Assembly: GCA_023130215.1 (NCBI GenBank)
Contig: JAGMAN010000112.1
Location: 1-10,398, forward strand
Direction of reading: 5' to 3'
Origin: a bacterium
GTDB lineage: Bacteria > NPL-UPA2 > JAGMAN01
Length of the DNA stretch: 10,398 nt
Of this stretch, positions 1,749 to 7,877 are shown in pieces. Numbering within the stretch: position 1 is the stretch's first letter; every line of letters starts with the position of its first letter. The position numbers and the translations under genes are program-made. The notes under the pieces are model-generated. The model made no database searches. It worked only from the letters and a program-made list of their open reading frames with translations, and was not told the DNA's origin.

Positions 1749-1779
1749 GCCAGCAATCCTGCAAAAAAGGATAGCTGGC
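1749..1779. repeat. 12-bp imperfect hairpin overlapping the sigma-54 -24 element
   Basis: GCCAGCAATCCT (1749-1760) pairs with AGGATAGCTGGC (1768-1779) with a single A-A mismatch and a 7-nt loop GCAAAAA. The right arm contains the GG of the sigma-54 -24 box (1777-1778), so hairpin and promoter share bases. On the plus strand no T-tract follows. On the minus strand the hairpin would be followed by TTTTAT, but there is no minus-strand gene for it to terminate. It may be an operator dyad close to the promoter or a structure in read-through transcripts. Confidence 0.6.
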
Positions 1780-1790
1780 ACGGAAATTGC
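1775..1790 (+). promoter_or_regulatory. Sigma-54 (RpoN) promoter, -24/-12
   Basis: CTGGCACGGAAATTGC matches the sigma-54 consensus YTGGCACG-N4-TTGC at every defined base. GG (1777-1778) and GC (1789-1790) have the required 10-nt separation. Counting from the -12 C at 1790, transcription should begin near 1802, just ahead of the AGAAAGGAG ribosome binding site and the ATG at 1820. Sigma-54 control of pilin genes through PilS/PilR-type activators is well known in other bacteria, so the site makes sense in front of a pilin gene. Confidence 0.88.
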
Positions 1791-1803
1791 GTATGTTTAG
1801 AGA

Positions 1804-1812
1804 AGAAAGGAG
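1804..1812 (+). promoter_or_regulatory. Ribosome binding site deciding the start at 1820
   Basis: AGAAAGGAG lies 7 nt before the ATG at 1820. The upstream in-frame candidates (TTG 1787, ATG 1793) overlap the sigma-54 -12 box or precede the predicted transcript start, so they cannot be used from that promoter. Confidence 0.75.
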
Positions 1813-1819
1813 ATTTCAC

Positions 1820-2656
1820 ATGGCAAGTCCTACGAAGCAAAAAAAAGGTTTTACCCTCATAGAATTGCTCGTTACCATTGCCATTATTTCCATCTTAGCC
1901 GCCCTCCTTCTACCTGCTGTTCAAAAGGCAAGAAGAAGAGCCCATTATGCCAGTTGGTGCGGATTAAAGCAATCCAATAAAAATGACCCCAATTGCGTTG
2001 GTTATTGGACTTTTGAGGAAACTTATGAAGATGCTTCAGGTAATACCAAGGTAGCAAACCTTGCCTATGCTTATACAGGTAGTCTCATTGGACACAGCGC
2101 TGAAGATTATGATGGGACATTAGAAGGCAATGCTTCTCTAACAACTGATCCAAGCGATGGCAGATTTACCGGCAAGAAAGCTTTAAGTCTTGATGGAAGC
2201 GGTGATTATGTTAATTGCAATCCTTTCAATGGATTAAGTGGTGCGACTCAGTTTACTATAGAATTTTGGGCAAAGTTTGATACACCACAAGGGTACATTT
2301 CCTGGAGAAATCTTGGATGGCTTATAGAGGTACAAGCGAGCCAATACCGCTTTAGATTCAATTTAGACGGTACTTGGGGAGCAACGTTTCAGGTAAACCA
2401 TATAACAGGAAGTTGGCATCATGTTGCAGCTACTTGGGATGGAACCTACACAAATATATATATAAACGGGGAGAAGGAAGTAGATAATTCTACTTCCGAT
2501 AGTGCTTATTCTGCTATGTCGAGTAATTCCCAGGCGTTAGACATAGGGCGGAGAGATGCTGGTTATTTTAAAGGCCTCATCGGCGAGGTCGCAATCTTTG
2601 ATGAATCCCTGTCTGCCAGTGAGATAAAGAAACGTTATCAGTCTGGCAGGCCATAG
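1820..2656 (+). CDS. Prepilin fused to a LamG/concanavalin A-like domain
   Basis: A 278-residue protein. The leader [10 protein letters not shown] is cleaved before F11, giving [22 protein letters not shown] (11-32) with the +5 Glu at 15. A short basic linker follows (35-41, QKARRRA). From about residue 59 to 272 the protein is a LamG-type jellyroll: CVGYWTFEE (59-67), [11 protein letters not shown] (121-131), [10 protein letters not shown] (145-154), [11 protein letters not shown] (198-208), [11 protein letters not shown] (213-223) and the closing [20 protein letters not shown] (250-269). These are the hallmark strands of the LamG_3 fold, often a calcium-dependent glycan- or protein-binding module. 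The H-X9-DG signature of its neighbours is absent because the LamG fold replaces that domain. The gene is first behind the sigma-54 promoter and 7 nt ahead of the next prepilin. A glycan- or surface-binding filament subunit is inferred; the ligand is unknown. Confidence 0.9.
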
Positions 2657-2663
2657 GAAAATG

Positions 2664-3299
2664 ATGGACAAGAAACGTAAAAAAACGGGGTTTACCATTG
2701 TGGAATTGCTTGTAGTCATTGGCATCATGGCCGTTTTAGCCGCAATTCTATTGCCTGTACTAAACACTGTCAGGAGAGGTGCAAGGCGTGTCACTTGTCT
2801 TAATAATATCAGGCAGATTGGTCTTGCCTTCCAGATGTATTCAGATGATTGGTATCACTCCTATCCAACTGGCACAGACTCGAACCCGTATAGTCTCTAT
2901 ACTGCTACTGATGAGGCAGCAGCAGGAGATGATAAAGGACATCTCTATTTTTACTACATCAGAGAAAATGCGCCGGAGACCTTCTGGTGCCCGGGAACTA
3001 CACATTCCAAACCAACCGAATCAGAGATTAAAAACAATACCAGCGGCAAGATTGTAGAAAGCTATGCCTATGTCTTTGGCCTGAAAGTAGGTTATAAGGA
3101 CACCGACCCGGTAGTAAGTGATAACAATGTTAATAATCACAAAACAGGGGTTAATGTGTACTATCTTGATGGCAGCGCCCGCTTTATTACAGCCAACAAT
3201 ATTGACGAATCAAGTTCAACAACTCCACGTAATGTTGCTTATGACACTAGTAATAATTCGGTAACTATTTCCACCGGTGCCCATACCTGGGATGAATAG
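2664..3299 (+). CDS. H-X9-DG (DUF1559-like) prepilin / type II pseudopilin
   Basis: A 211-residue prepilin with leader MDKKRKKTG, cleaved before FTIVELLVVIGIMAVLAAIL (residues 10-29), +5 Glu at 14. It continues with TCLNNIRQIGLAFQMYSDD (44-62), nearly the same as the corresponding stretch in the prepilin at 839-1507, which marks the two as relatives. Cys at 45 and 109 and the H159-x9-D169-G170 signature are present. The start is ATG 2664 or the adjacent ATG 2661; AGGA at 2655-2658 gives better spacing (5 nt) for 2664. It sits 7 nt after the LamG-prepilin stop and very likely shares its sigma-54 transcript. The C-terminal tail (about 180-211) is Ser/Thr/Asn-rich and without recognisable motif. 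The exact role of the DUF1559-like domain is not established. Confidence 0.88.
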   Translation: MDKKRKKTGFTIVELLVVIGIMAVLAAILLPVLNTVRRGARRVTCLNNIRQIGLAFQMYSDDWYHSYPTGTDSNPYSLYTATDEAAAGDDKGHLYFYYIRENAPETFWCPGTTHSKPTESEIKNNTSGKIVESYAYVFGLKVGYKDTDPVVSDNNVNNHKTGVNVYYLDGSARFITANNIDESSSTTPRNVAYDTSNNSVTISTGAHTWDE

Positions 3300-3317
3300 T
3301 AAATAACACAATTATAA

Positions 3318-3344
3318 TTTCATGTAGGGGTTCGATTCATGAAA
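3318..3344. repeat. Inverted repeat TTTCATG/CATGAAA around TAGGGGTTCGATT
   Basis: A perfect 7-bp inverted repeat (3318-3324 and 3338-3344) encloses TAGGGGTTCGATT. It resembles a degenerate copy of a short dispersed element seen in uncultured bacterial genomes; this is recalled similarity, not a search result. It lies 19 nt past a prepilin stop and has no T-tract. Confidence 0.45.
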
Positions 3345-3383
3345 CCTGAAACAACTTCAATGTTATCAATATACACACTCATC

Positions 3384-3424
3384 CTGCCCTCTCCCCTCGG
3401 GGGAGAGGATGGAGGTGAGGGGAT
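3384..3424. repeat. REP-like GC-rich inverted repeat element
   Basis: CCTCTCCCC (3388-3396) and GGGGAGAGG (3400-3408) form a perfect 9-bp stem with loop TCG, followed by ATGGAGGTGAGGGGA (3409-3423). The CTCTCCCC...GGGGAGAGGxxGAGGTGAGGGG pattern matches a widespread class of REP-like dispersed repeats. The hairpin could attenuate or stabilise read-through RNA between the sigma-54 unit and the downstream pilin operon. Confidence 0.65.
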
Positions 3425-3432
3425 TAAGAAAA

Positions 3433-3450
3433 TCTCTGCGTTCTCTGTGA
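3433..3450. repeat. Imperfect tandem 9-mer TCTCTGCGT/TCTCTGTGA
   Basis: Two adjacent 9-mers, TCTCTGCGT (3433-3441) and TCTCTGTGA (3442-3450), match at 7 of 9 positions. Similar CTCTGTG-type short repeats are scattered in many genomes. It is listed because it adds to the repeat density just upstream of the GspG-like gene. Confidence 0.35.
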
Positions 3451-3471
3451 TTAAATTGCGGAGAACAAGCA

Positions 3472-3480
3472 GAAAGGAGG
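3472..3480 (+). promoter_or_regulatory. Strong ribosome binding site for the GspG-like gene
   Basis: GAAAGGAGG ends 4 nt before the ATG at 3485. No comparable site precedes the internal ATG at 3581, so this RBS supports the long-leader start. Confidence 0.7.
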
Positions 3481-3484
3481 CAAA

Positions 3485-4309
3485 ATGAAAGAGAAAAATT
3501 TGGAATTTGGAATTTGCAAATCGGGGCTTCGCCGCAGGTTTTGGGGGTTTACTACATTAGAGTTACGTGACCTTTTAAAAATGAAATTTCTAACGGGTCG
3601 AGGAAATAAGAAAGCAAGCCCTAATAAAAATCCATTTCTAAGTGGGGTAACGGGATTTACCATGACAGAGCTGATAGTGGTAATGGCAATTATTGTCATT
3701 TTGGCCGCCACGATAATGCCCGCCGTCGGTCGTGCCCGCAAGAAAGCCGCCATCAATAAGGCCACGGCAGAAATGGCTGGATTGGCCTCCACCGGAAGCA
3801 TGATTTATTTGGATATGGGGGGTTACATAGGTCTGTGTAATTACGATATGATAGATGGATCTCTTGCTTATACTGATAGCGTAAGTTCAACACCCGAGAA
3901 GTTCAATCAATCAAGTGAAACTGGAAAGACCTTTTTTACTGGTTTTACTAACCTTGCTGGCTTTCAGGCTGCTTGGGATGGACCATATACAACCTATCAG
4001 CCAGATGGTACGTACTCAGCAACTCAGGGTTCCCTTGCTACTTACGATACGGGGATAGGTGATTGGGCATCTGGCGATTTTCCTACAGGCACTCCTTTAG
4101 ACCCCTGGAATCATCCATATGGTCTTGCCTATAGCACTAGCGAAGAGGTAATGGTAGTTTATTCCGCTGGCCCAGATGGAAAATTCCAGACAGAAGCAGG
4201 GGCTGTAGTTAAGGGCGATGCTAACCGAGATGGTGATAACACCGATGCAGGTGACTATCCTGGTACTACTAACACTGCGTCTGACGACTTGCTCTATAAG
4301 TTCAAATAA
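3485..4309 (+). CDS. GspG-like major pseudopilin with unusually long leader
   Basis: A 274-residue prepilin. The cleavage motif GVTG^FTMTELIVVMAIIVILAATIMP starts the mature protein at F58, with +5 Glu at 62. The leader is therefore 57 residues, against roughly 6-25 in typical prepilins. Its first 35 residues look repeat-derived (tandem TTTGGAA heptamers) and contain a decoy GFTTLEL (21-27) with no hydrophobic stretch after it. The C-terminal region follows the GspG layout: PLDPWNHPYGLAYS (204-217), VVYSAGPDGKF (224-234) and the final DDLLYKFK (267-274). Between them, DANRDGDNTDAGD (245-257) resembles a calcium-binding loop. GspG-type pseudopilins form the main filament of type II secretion systems and are stabilised by calcium. 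The gene heads a tight operon with PilX/GspK-, GspI- and GspJ-like genes. ATG 3581 (M33) is an alternative start but lacks an RBS. Confidence 0.85.
   Translation: MKEKNLEFGICKSGLRRRFWGFTTLELRDLLKMKFLTGRGNKKASPNKNPFLSGVTGFTMTELIVVMAIIVILAATIMPAVGRARKKAAINKATAEMAGLASTGSMIYLDMGGYIGLCNYDMIDGSLAYTDSVSSTPEKFNQSSETGKTFFTGFTNLAGFQAAWDGPYTTYQPDGTYSATQGSLATYDTGIGDWASGDFPTGTPLDPWNHPYGLAYSTSEEVMVVYSAGPDGKFQTEAGAVVKGDANRDGDNTDAGDYPGTTNTASDDLLYKFK
3499..3519 (+). repeat. Tandem heptamer TTTGGAA inside the leader coding region
   Basis: TTTGGAA, TTTGGAA and TTTGCAA occur back to back (3499-3519), encoding part of the N-terminal leader of the GspG-like prepilin (NLEFGICK). Such AT-rich heptamer arrays look like an intergenic dispersed repeat that has been captured into the coding frame. 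Confidence 0.55.
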
Positions 4310-4314
4310 GGAGG
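4310..4314 (+). promoter_or_regulatory. Ribosome binding site deciding the start at 4324
   Basis: GGAGG lies directly against an ATG at 4315 (no spacing) but 9 nt before the ATG at 4324. Normal spacing favours 4324 as the real start. Confidence 0.65.
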
Positions 4315-4323
4315 ATGTTTAAG

Positions 4324-5811
4324 ATGTCCAACAACAAAGGAGTGGCGATGATTGTGGCTGTTGTGATGGCAATGATCTTTTTGATGCTTGTCATCGCCGT
4401 GAGTGCTATTTCCACCTCAGCCTACAAAAAAGCCCACTTTTACAAAGACCGTGCCATCGCCTTAAATCTTGCTGAAGCCGGCATCGCCGATGCCCTTTAT
4501 AGAATGAATTACAAGAATTATTCTACAGCTACCTTTGCCTATTTTAATGATATAGATAACTTTCACATAGATGAGGATTTTGCTGGTGGGAGTTATCAGG
4601 TTGTCTACACTCAGGTAGGAGCGAATGAAGATACTATCGAATCTACAGGTAAGCATAAAGGCAGGATGCGAAAAATTATAATCAAAGTTAGGGGGACAAA
4701 TAGTGGAGGAGTAGGAGATGGCATCGCCGAAGCATTTAATAAGCATGCGGTGTATGCTGGGACAGTAGTTAAAACAGGCGGTACATGGGGAACGGTAGAT
4801 GGGAATATTGCTTCCACAACGGATTTATCAGGCGAAACCATTCCAACAAGTAATGGTAATTCCAAAATTCAGGATACAAATATAGATAATACTTATTTCC
4901 CCAGTTTGATTCTTACTCCTACGGCTTTACCTTCCGTTGTTTGGGTAACATACACGGAGGGAGACACGGGAGTTCCAGATGGAGCGCCTTATGATTTTGA
5001 CGGTGCCTATGGTGCTTCTACTTATGATGGTGCTGGAACCTATACCTTTGCCAATGGTGCGACAATTGCAAATTCTCCTAAATTAAATCGTAGTGCTGGT
5101 GCCGCTACTATAATTTTGAATGATGTGACCATCAATGTAGGGCAAGTTATAGGAACGGATAATGGGTCTATCTCAGCAACTAATTCTACTATTACTAATG
5201 ACCTTATCGTATCAGGTGGGGCATTAACCCTTGATGGCGCTACGGTAAATGGAAGGGTAGTCTGCGACAATGATATTACTCTTTCCGGGGCGGCTTCTAC
5301 CATTGATGCCAGCGCCACTGCCAGTACGTATGAGGCACCAATATTGGCTAACGCTGGAGGAGATGCTGATATAATTATTCAAGATAATGCACCGGATATC
5401 ACTCTGGATTCAGGCCAGGAGGCAGTGGTTATTGCCTATTCTAATGGAGGGGCCGTTACCGTGACCGTAAATGCTAATTTAACTCCCACATTAAGTGGTG
5501 GTCAAGCAGGTATTATTGCATTTGCTGATTCAGCTAATAATGCCACAATAACCATAGGTACTGCGGCAGCAGATGTTAATGGCCTTATTTATGCTTATGG
5601 CAATTCAGGCAATGATGGCGATATCACCCTGGATGCCAGTGCTGGTGATATTTCCGGGGCATTGGTAGCATGCGATGCAGTTACTTTAGATGGTGGTACG
5701 CTTACCTGGGATTCTTCTCGTTATAAGTCCTCCAGCTATCCACTTTACGCGAATTTCTCTGGTGGCAGGCGGGTGTATCTGCCGGTGATAGGGAGCTGGA
5801 AAGAGGAATAA
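4324..5811 (+). CDS. PilX/GspK-like minor pseudopilin with large beta-rich repeat domain
   Basis: A 495-residue protein. The leader MSNNKG is followed by VAMIVAVVMAMIFLMLVIAVSAIS (7-30). There is no Glu at +5, as in GspK and the Pseudomonas-type PilX, which cap the filament tip. The stretch RAIALNLAEAGIADALYRMN (about 43-62) is the typical PilX/GspK sequence after the helix. Residues about 70-110 form a small pilin-like region (GGSYQVVYTQVG, STGKHKGRMRKIIIKVRG). From about 130 to 480 the protein is rich in Gly, Ala, Asp, Thr and Val with recurring short strands such as GALTLDGATVNGRVV, GDITLDASAGDISGALVA and DAVTLDGGTLTWDSS. These suggest a right-handed beta-helix or solenoid, as in some adhesins. 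It ends with RRVYLPVIGSWKEE. The stop abuts the next start (TAAATG), so the two are coupled. The upstream ATG 4315 is less likely. Confidence 0.82.
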   Translation: MSNNKGVAMIVAVVMAMIFLMLVIAVSAISTSAYKKAHFYKDRAIALNLAEAGIADALYRMNYKNYSTATFAYFNDIDNFHIDEDFAGGSYQVVYTQVGANEDTIESTGKHKGRMRKIIIKVRGTNSGGVGDGIAEAFNKHAVYAGTVVKTGGTWGTVDGNIASTTDLSGETIPTSNGNSKIQDTNIDNTYFPSLILTPTALPSVVWVTYTEGDTGVPDGAPYDFDGAYGASTYDGAGTYTFANGATIANSPKLNRSAGAATIILNDVTINVGQVIGTDNGSISATNSTITNDLIVSGGALTLDGATVNGRVVCDNDITLSGAASTIDASATASTYEAPILANAGGDADIIIQDNAPDITLDSGQEAVVIAYSNGGAVTVTVNANLTPTLSGGQAGIIAFADSANNATITIGTAAADVNGLIYAYGNSGNDGDITLDASAGDISGALVACDAVTLDGGTLTWDSSRYKSSSYPLYANFSGGRRVYLPVIGSWKEE

Positions 5812-6249
5812 ATGAGAATTAGAGGAGATTCTGGATTTACTCTTCTTGAGATGGTGATTGCGATGTCTATCATCGCTATTGTCCTTGCCTTCTCTCTGAT
5901 GTTGATGGGGGATGGGATGAGGAAAGCGGTGAAGGCAAATACAATCGTTACCGCGGCTGCTTTAGCTCAATATGAGATTGATAGGGTAAAAAACATTGCT
6001 TTTCCCCCAACCACAGATGATAGGCAGGATGAGTTTAATGATACAGACCAGGACCCTTATCCTTATGATTCCGATTATCGTGTTGAAGTTCTTAATGATT
6101 CTTATGATGCAGGGGGAAGTGGTCCTATAAGCGATACAAGTTATGATGCTACTATGATTAGAGAAATTACAGTTAATGTCTATAAAACAGGCAGTAGTGA
6201 CCCTTTAGTTACTCTCACTACCTACGTCGCCCGTAATGGAGAAATATAG
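5812..6249 (+). CDS. GspI/PilV-like minor pseudopilin
   Basis: A 145-residue protein with leader MRIRGDSG cleaved before FTLLEMVIAMSIIAIVLAFSLM (9-30), +5 Glu at 13. The sequence after the helix, VTAAALAQYEIDRVKNIAF (about 45-63), matches the ALAQxExxRVKNI region typical of GspI and PilV. The rest is a short beta-rich domain (DYRVEVLNDSYD, IREITVNVYKTG, VTLTTYVARNGEI), as in minor pseudopilins. AGAGGA at 5802-5807 serves as RBS and ATG follows directly on the upstream stop. In type II secretion GspI nucleates the tip complex with J and K; its position between the PilX/GspK-like and GspJ-like genes supports that role here. Confidence 0.82.
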   Translation: MRIRGDSGFTLLEMVIAMSIIAIVLAFSLMLMGDGMRKAVKANTIVTAAALAQYEIDRVKNIAFPPTTDDRQDEFNDTDQDPYPYDSDYRVEVLNDSYDAGGSGPISDTSYDATMIREITVNVYKTGSSDPLVTLTTYVARNGEI

Positions 6250-6882
6250 ATGGAGAAAAGACTTAAATCTTTGGGGGGTTTTACCCTGGTGGAGGTAGTG
6301 GTTAGTAGTTTGATTTTGGTTGTTGCTATGACACTTATTGGTGTCCTCTTTGGTAAAGCAGGTAAAATCCGCCTCGCTGTTACTGCTGAAAACGATATCC
6401 AAATAGTTGCCAATCAGATGATGGATACTATCATTACAGGAGCTGGTACTCCCTTGCAGGGATTGATGTCCGCAACGAAGATATATGATATTGACACGTC
6501 TTCTTCTCCAAAATACGTTACTTTTGGCAATTGTGATGGTGTAGGTAGGTATGTGCGCTTCGATATAAGCTCGGCTGCTGCTGCCAACTCATTGTACAGC
6601 GTTGTTGTGCCTATGACAAGTCCAGAACCTTCTGCAAGTGGCACAGATGATATAGATTTTAACGATAAGGTTGATTTAGAATCAGGCTCTCAGTTCACTT
6701 TTTATGACTGGAAGGAGGATGAAATTGATTCTTCCTATACTCCTCCTCCTGGTAAGAGTAATGAGGATTGTGTTGCCAAAGTTATGGTCTGTCTTGTTGC
6801 TAAATCCAACCTTGCGGCTATTTCCCGCACCATTACCCTTTATAATAGCGTCAAGGCTAGAAATATCTACCATATTGATTAG
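6250..6882 (+). CDS. GspJ/PilW-like minor pseudopilin
   Basis: A 210-residue prepilin. Leader MEKRLKSLGG is cleaved before FTLVEVVVSSLILVVAMTLIGVLF (11-34), +5 Glu at 15. Position in the operon, size and the C-terminal TLYNSVKARN ending agree with GspJ/PilW proteins, though family members diverge strongly outside the helix and the label rests mainly on layout. Three Cys (FGNCDG, NEDCVAK, VMVCLV) may allow one disulfide in the periplasm. The ATG directly follows the previous stop (TAG-ATG), with GGAG at 6238-6241 as RBS, and the stop overlaps a possible GTG start of the next gene. Confidence 0.78.
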   Translation: MEKRLKSLGGFTLVEVVVSSLILVVAMTLIGVLFGKAGKIRLAVTAENDIQIVANQMMDTIITGAGTPLQGLMSATKIYDIDTSSSPKYVTFGNCDGVGRYVRFDISSAAAANSLYSVVVPMTSPEPSASGTDDIDFNDKVDLESGSQFTFYDWKEDEIDSSYTPPPGKSNEDCVAKVMVCLVAKSNLAAISRTITLYNSVKARNIYHID

Positions 6883-6884
6883 TG

Positions 6885-7877
6885 ATGATACCTACCAAAA
6901 CTAACTTCCCCCAATATAAGCATTTTCTTCGTTACCACCTTATCCTGTCAGTACTAATTTCCTTCCCGGTCTTATATGTTTTCCTGGCAGCAGAGATAAA
7001 GCTGTTTAGCATCTGCCTTTTCGTGGCCGGGTTGGTTTTTGGGTACTGGGGAGCAAATACTCAGATACTGCTCCGTGAGCAAGAGTGGGAGGCATTTGCA
7101 AAAGGCGGGATTAGGAATTTTTGGAGGTTTAAAATTGGCAAGAGGCTTCTCACTATACTACTGATATTTGGTTTCATCCCTTTTGCACTGTGGCTCTCTG
7201 CTGTCGCAAAGTTTGTTTCATCTACTGGCCCAACCAGTGAGCAAAATCCAATCCTTGCTTACTACCATTACTATCTCATCAGCTCTGCCCTTACCTGGTT
7301 CTTCACTAACTACAATTGGGCACGGAGCATGCCCCAAAAGGTGCCAGAGCCAGGAGTTTATAGAAGAAAGAACAAGAGAATATCCCTCACATTTCTTTGC
7401 GGCTTCACCCTTGCTATCATCCTCAGGGCTTCCGTGGTCCAGCTAATGCAAGTTACCTCCACTTCAATGGCGCCAACATTGCACGCTCCAGACCGAGTCA
7501 TAGTTAATAAATTCATCTATCATTTCTCCAAACCAAAGCGGGGAGATATCATTGCCTTCAAATTCCCCAAGGACCCAAAAATAAACTTTATCAAGAGAGT
7601 TGCCGCCACTGCGGGAGAGGAAATAAACATTAAGGGAGGGCGCATCTGTATTGATGGCAATCCCATCGCTGAACCAGAAGTGATGAAGAAAGTATACTAC
7701 TACAGCTCCCCCGATTTCAAGAAGCAGAGGGTCCCCGAAGATTCCCTTTTCGTCTTGGGTGATAATAGCCTCGGCAGTGATGACAGTAGAATTTGGGGAT
7801 TCCTCCCATTAAGCAATGTGAAGGGCAGAATATCCCTCGTCTATTGGCCACCCAAGAGGGCAGGCTTGGTCAGATAA
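6885..7877 (+). CDS. lepB: Signal peptidase I with extra N-terminal membrane domain
   Basis: A 330-residue protein. The C-terminal half (about 167-330) is signal peptidase I: anchor helix FLCGFTLAIILRASVV, box B TSTSMAPTL with the catalytic Ser at 194, RGDIIAFKFP (219-228), then NFIKRVAATAGEEI with the catalytic Lys at 237, and box E LGDNSLGSDDSRIWG (291-305). The Ser-Lys dyad is intact. It removes ordinary secretory signal peptides; it is not a prepilin peptidase. Residues 1-160 form an additional domain with about four hydrophobic segments (near 16-36, 40-57, 87-107, 123-144) separated by basic loops; I do not recognise it. Typical enzymes have one or two N-terminal helices, so this one is long. 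The start is ATG 6885, or GTG 6882 overlapping the upstream stop; no clear RBS, so coupling is likely. Confidence 0.9.
   Translation: MIPTKTNFPQYKHFLRYHLILSVLISFPVLYVFLAAEIKLFSICLFVAGLVFGYWGANTQILLREQEWEAFAKGGIRNFWRFKIGKRLLTILLIFGFIPFALWLSAVAKFVSSTGPTSEQNPILAYYHYYLISSALTWFFTNYNWARSMPQKVPEPGVYRRKNKRISLTFLCGFTLAIILRASVVQLMQVTSTSMAPTLHAPDRVIVNKFIYHFSKPKRGDIIAFKFPKDPKINFIKRVAATAGEEINIKGGRICIDGNPIAEPEVMKKVYYYSSPDFKKQRVPEDSLFVLGDNSLGSDDSRIWGFLPLSNVKGRISLVYWPPKRAGLVR

Follow-up and report, generated by a model that had tools for sequence, protein, structure and literature searches.

What controls transcription of the pilin gene cluster that begins at position 1820 of this DNA, and does an inverted repeat lying across its apparent promoter form part of that control? 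The window (the whole stretch of 10,398 nucleotides analysed here, C16 for short) is one of the 136 contigs of a 1.01 Mb genome, G000, from an uncultured NPL-UPA2 bacterium; a genome of about 1 Mb has also been described for the NPL-UPA2 member Unc8, with pili present and a flagellum absent (PMC6305446). The first gene of the driven unit (1820-2656; all window features given below are on the + strand) encodes a prepilin with a C-terminal LamG/concanavalin-like domain (PF07963, 2e-9; PF13385, 9.5e-23). Further pilin-type genes follow from 2661 to 6882 (2661-3299, 3485-4309, 4315-5811, 5812-6249 and 6250-6882) and are presumed to form an operon, on the evidence of PF07963/PF07596/PF08334 matches on three of them, N_methyl matches and tight spacing; a signal peptidase I-like gene (6882-7877; PF10502, 2.4e-46) ends the cluster. 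The gene upstream of the LamG unit, at 839-1507 on the same strand, also encodes a pilin.

A preliminary description of the window had placed a sigma-54 promoter at 1775-1790 and judged it to fit the consensus throughout, which is nearly right. Bases 1776-1791 read TGGCACGGAAATTGCG, and the -24/-12 element within them (TGGCACGGAAATTGC, 1776-1790) is an exact match to TGGCACG-N4-TTGC, agreeing at all 11 fixed bases; the element starts one base later than had been given, and its sole departure from TGGCACG-N4-TTGCW is a G at the final consensus position (W, 1791). The GG at 1777-1778 and the GC at 1789-1790 stand ten bases apart, in the correct GG-N10-GC spacing that had been reported. Position 12 past the -12 C gives a predicted transcription start at 1802, from which a leader of 18 nt (1802-1819), carrying AAAGGAG at 1806-1812, would run to the ATG at 1820, a reading that agrees with the very short leader proposed earlier. 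When TGGCACG-N4-TTGCW was sought with at most one mismatch, the 1.01 Mb genome yielded 7 matches against 1 in the reversed control, and because of this excess the site ahead of the pilin gene is not put down to chance.

The same kind of element recurs at other pilin genes. N_methyl prepilins are found on only four contigs of the genome, and at three of these four loci one of the seven genomic matches lies just ahead of the first prepilin gene (C16:1776; C116:4901, on the - strand; and C120:1241, where the site reads TGGCACAAAACTTGCA), while the fourth contig, C91, begins inside its cluster. A fourth good site, on C113, stands ahead of an lpxD-like gene. Sigma-54-like sites were also seen on the - strands of C43 (L049, ~455-495) and C73 (L045, ~7032-7075), in each case right behind a terminator-like hairpin with a T-run. 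A quick scan of the prepilin loci in genomes G003 and G004 gave no good sigma-54 site.

The control region as a whole could be compared in three copies in all: C16, its paralogue on C116 (L047) of the same genome, and contig C86 (L122) of a congener, G002. The C16 and C116 intergenic regions can be aligned over about 240 bp, and the genes upstream of them differ (a pilin gene versus rplE, for ribosomal protein L5); in G002 the whole control region lies ahead of a pilin operon. The sigma-54 core of C16 is identical at 15 of 16 positions to that of C116 and, again at 15 of 16, to that of G002, so that the same element is kept both in a paralogous pilin promoter and in a relative. Conservation extends upstream in a patchwork. 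Block B (TGCCACCGACGGTATAAAAGCC, 1729-1751), just upstream of the promoter, matches at 21 of 23 positions in both other copies; block A (TATTTGGGGAAT..ACATAAG..CCACTTAC.., 1589-1641) at 42 of 53 in C116 and 45 of 53 in G002; and two further segments, 1655-1679 (21/25 and 24/25, in the same order) and 1564-1582 (15/19 and 14/19), flank block A. The stretch between them and block B, 1680-1728, is identical at 37/49 in G002 and at 15/58 in C116; the low figure for C116 does not reflect drift alone, because a REP-like repeat there replaces the stretch. When 84,980 species were scanned for block B together with TGGCAC, the only relevant match was JAJOKU010000123.1 (NPL-UPA2), which is the G002 contig itself; the other 11 matches, in unrelated taxa and in the number expected, were taken as chance, as was a block B match with one mismatch in G069 that falls within an outer-membrane protein gene region. 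On the evidence of sequence, 1776-1790 is a genuine, conserved sigma-54 promoter of the pilin gene cluster.

The proteins that such a promoter would call for are encoded in the genome. RpoN, a search for which had been suggested in the preliminary description, is present on C23 with its activator-interacting (AID), core-binding (CBD) and DNA-binding (DBD) domains, the last part of the RpoN box being cut by the contig end. Four sigma-54 activators that combine an AAA+ domain (PF00158) with a Fis-type HTH are encoded on C54, C43, C24 and C120, and the GAFTGA motif can be read in all four sequences. The one on C120 directly precedes the pilin gene of that contig; no activator gene is encoded in the window beside the 1776 promoter. 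In the congener G001, a pilin gene with TGGCACAGAAATTGCG is directly preceded by genes for a histidine kinase and for an NtrC-type activator, and the sigma-54-type promoter of this pilin gene carries the palindrome GTGTTCCATATAGGAACAC. With rpoN and NtrC-type activators in the genome, and the -24/-12 bases kept in the congener and in the paralogous pilin promoter, sigma-54 control of the LamG-pilin unit, as first proposed, is supported; what had been overlooked are conserved tandem enhancer-like sites further upstream.

These sites were flagged by a repeat finder as direct repeats at 1564-1582 and 1655-1673, on either side of block A. The distal putative enhancer (UAS1, GTGTCACCAACACAGCACA, direct repeat D1) and its proximal partner (UAS2, GTGTAAACTATACAGCACA) share the motif GTGTnnnCnAYACArCACA, which, with up to 2 mismatches, occurs at exactly four sites in the genome, two in the C16 promoter and two in that of C116, and at none in reversed controls. 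Since those four sites were themselves the source of the motif, this exclusivity is partly circular; the independent check is G002, whose control region also contains two copies. The spacing between copies is 91 bp in C16, 91 bp in C116 and 90 bp in G002, and their centres lie at -228/-137, -237/-146 and -228/-138, respectively, the proximal distance in C116 being off by 8-9 bp as compared with C16 and G002. The motif is absent from the C120, C43 and C73 promoters, which for that reason probably answer to other activators, and in more distant members of the phylum it occurs at control level. Tandem sites at such distances are the normal enhancer layout for sigma-54 activators, as is generally known (PMC3162934).

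The element, its spacing, its conservation, the exclusivity of the upstream motif and the presence of rpoN and activators can all be read from sequence, and together they make it highly probable that the region is a sigma-54 promoter that depends on an activator acting from tandem enhancers and is common to two pilin operons. An NtrC/PilR-type activator would occupy the two candidate sites, some 137 and 228 bp upstream, hydrolyse ATP and contact the sigma-54 polymerase through looping of the DNA; the polymerase, bound at 1776-1790, would then initiate near 1802 and transcribe the pilin cluster from the LamG-pilin gene at 1820. One type of enhancer-promoter region would thereby also govern the second pilin operon of the genome, on C116, and because they share it the C16 and C116 operons are probably switched together.

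The surroundings of the region raise a further possibility. The contig of G002 carries, at 91-345 and 329-562, a decayed remnant of the window's pilin gene 839-1507, and the order there is decayed remnant, control region and then a pilin operon of the C116 type, with similarity to C16 ending just past the promoter (window position 1794). As judged from these alignments, the promoter region has the look of a joint at which pilin operons are exchanged. On C116 (4140-5688) the pilin operon comes directly after rplE, where ribosomal protein genes are expected, which may be a rearrangement or an assembly join. The REP-like palindromic repeat (CCTCTCCCC..GGGGAGAGGAT..GGTGAGGGG) is found at 3377-3430 of the window, near 4973 of C116 (- strand), near 617 of the G002 contig and near 1205 of L123 (- strand); in all three congeners it lies near pilin promoters or separates one pilin gene from the next. 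The G002 pilin operon also contains two small-gene pairs (L122:1360-2200 and 3504-4206) of nucleotidyltransferase (MNT)/HEPN-type appearance. A fuller version of the exchange idea would make the ~240-bp region an interchangeable cassette, with recombination swapping the pilin operons that stand behind it and the dyad of C16 adding a further on/off site. The region does occur in three contexts (flanked by pilin 839 and the LamG operon, or by rplE and the other pilin operon, in G000, and by the decayed copy of 839 and the latter operon in G002), and we regard this version as unlikely.

The dyad itself had been presented as a 12-bp near-perfect inverted repeat with the -24 GG in its right arm, and so it is: the arms at 1749-1760 and 1768-1779, the latter holding the -24 TGGC, form 11 of 12 pairs around a loop of 7. 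No other dyad of such quality is present in the window, but equal ones turn up in 5 of 12 dinucleotide-shuffled windows, so that by itself it is not beyond chance; the probability that a dyad would fall precisely on one particular 16-base site is about 0.002 by our own arithmetic, in what is a post hoc test. It is known that repressor sites can overlap the -24 region of sigma-54 promoters, as does that of Caulobacter FlbD at fliF. A dimeric repressor might sit on 1749-1779 and, over and above the control by enhancers, block the sigma-54 polymerase at -24, and the well-paired stem (-17.5 kcal/mol for the 31 nt folded as RNA) does lie on the polymerase footprint, with its outer six pairs retained in G002 and, for the most part, in C116. 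The inner pairs, however, are broken in both other copies (3 of 5 in C116, which also lacks pair 6, and 2 of 5 in G002), their folds reach just -3.6 kcal/mol in C116 and -8.6 kcal/mol in G002, and the sole other copy of the region in the genome, the C116 paralogue, is without the inner arms. Only five pairs (four outer, one inner) are invariant across the three copies. The 5-6 outer pairs kept in the paralogue and the congener fall on conserved sequence and on the -24 box, and they need nothing beyond conservation of primary sequence, because the outer right arm belongs to the promoter and the outer left arm is the end of block B; the inner bases of both arms are not conserved. A both-sided change is seen in one pair only, which 165 of 500 shuffles equal, and with 110-165 of 500 shuffles reaching the observed compensation, it is across the three sequences not above the level of shuffles. 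The check proposed in the preliminary description, whether dyad and promoter are conserved together, accordingly comes out against the dyad. The likeness to FlbD at fliF, a resemblance only, lies in the physical position over the -24 box, and unlike that case the dyad here is not conserved and is without a known binding protein. A repressor acting at the dyad is thus quite unlikely, and the dyad over the -24 box seems to be mainly a by-product, with an inner stem specific to the C16 copy.

Less probable still is that the hairpin acts in an RNA started upstream, as a terminator or attenuator of read-through from pilin 839-1507 into the LamG unit. The upstream gene is co-oriented, and the C43 and C73 sites do stand behind true terminator-like hairpins, but the + strand from 1480 to 1860 contains neither a T-tract nor any terminator-like site, an Rfam search of both promoter regions returned chance-level matches only, and the stem is not conserved. 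As a special device interlocked with the -24 box, then, the hairpin is not supported, its inner stem being broken, its outer pairs being explained by conserved primary sequence, and neither a compensatory signal nor a terminator being present; with three sequences, the evidence goes against the hairpin reading, short of proof. That the conserved upstream region might be, instead of a region of enhancers, a structured non-coding RNA or a long leader is hardly to be credited either: some 240 bp are conserved around a variable stretch, and in the three-sequence consensus fold (-29.7 kcal/mol) both partners have changed in 7 pairs, but the covariation term is just -0.1, 4 of those 7 changes fall in the variable stretch that the REP-like repeat replaces in C116, no Rfam family matches, a sigma-54 start at 1802 would place the region outside the transcript, and direct repeats at a fixed spacing of 90-91 bp are typical of enhancers.

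The favoured arrangement, an enhancer-dependent promoter shared by two operons, resembles the PilR/NtrC-activated sigma-54 pilin promoters of the Pseudomonas, Myxococcus and Geobacter type in its -24/-12 element just before the pilin gene, in its (candidate) activator sites more than 100 bp upstream, in the NtrC-type activators of the genome and, in the congener G001, in a pilin gene beside a kinase/activator pair. It differs from them in that its putative enhancer is present twice, at a distance of 91 bp, and has a motif matched to no known activator, in that the cognate activator is not beside the operon, and in its host, an uncultured NPL-UPA2 bacterium. Pili are a recurrent target of sigma-54, whose regulon, as surveyed before the NPL-UPA2 genomes were available (Francke et al. 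2011, PMC3162934), is one of genes for the cell exterior, and the G000 targets, pili and an envelope gene (the lpxD-like gene on C113), are of the same kind. A small-genome, uncultured bacterium would thus retain classical enhancer-dependent control of its pili, through a shared enhancer motif that is recognisable and hence testable. The -24 hairpin drops off the list of unusual devices and the control looks ordinary; the curiosities that remain are conserved blocks A and B and the apparent exchange of operons behind the promoter region in G002.

A separate observation arose from the search for sigma factors. A second rpoN-like match, on C83 (L053), was rejected as a sigma factor and proved to be a nuclease fusion: the gene at 431-1609 encodes a protein of 393 aa in which a sigma-54 DNA-binding domain (PF04552, 1.9e-13) is combined with a GIY-YIG nuclease domain (PF01541, 4.6e-6). 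A literature search joining the terms for both domains found no paper, and no such fusion was found in viral contigs. The protein is possibly a nuclease addressed to sigma-54 promoters and, if so, merits separate study. Its relatives, at L189:1501-2739 and L188:1501-2361 (both on the - strand), come from two genomes unrelated to this one and to each other in the parts they share with it: the protein of G029 is 43% identical over aa 118-393, that of G046 63% over aa 230-393.
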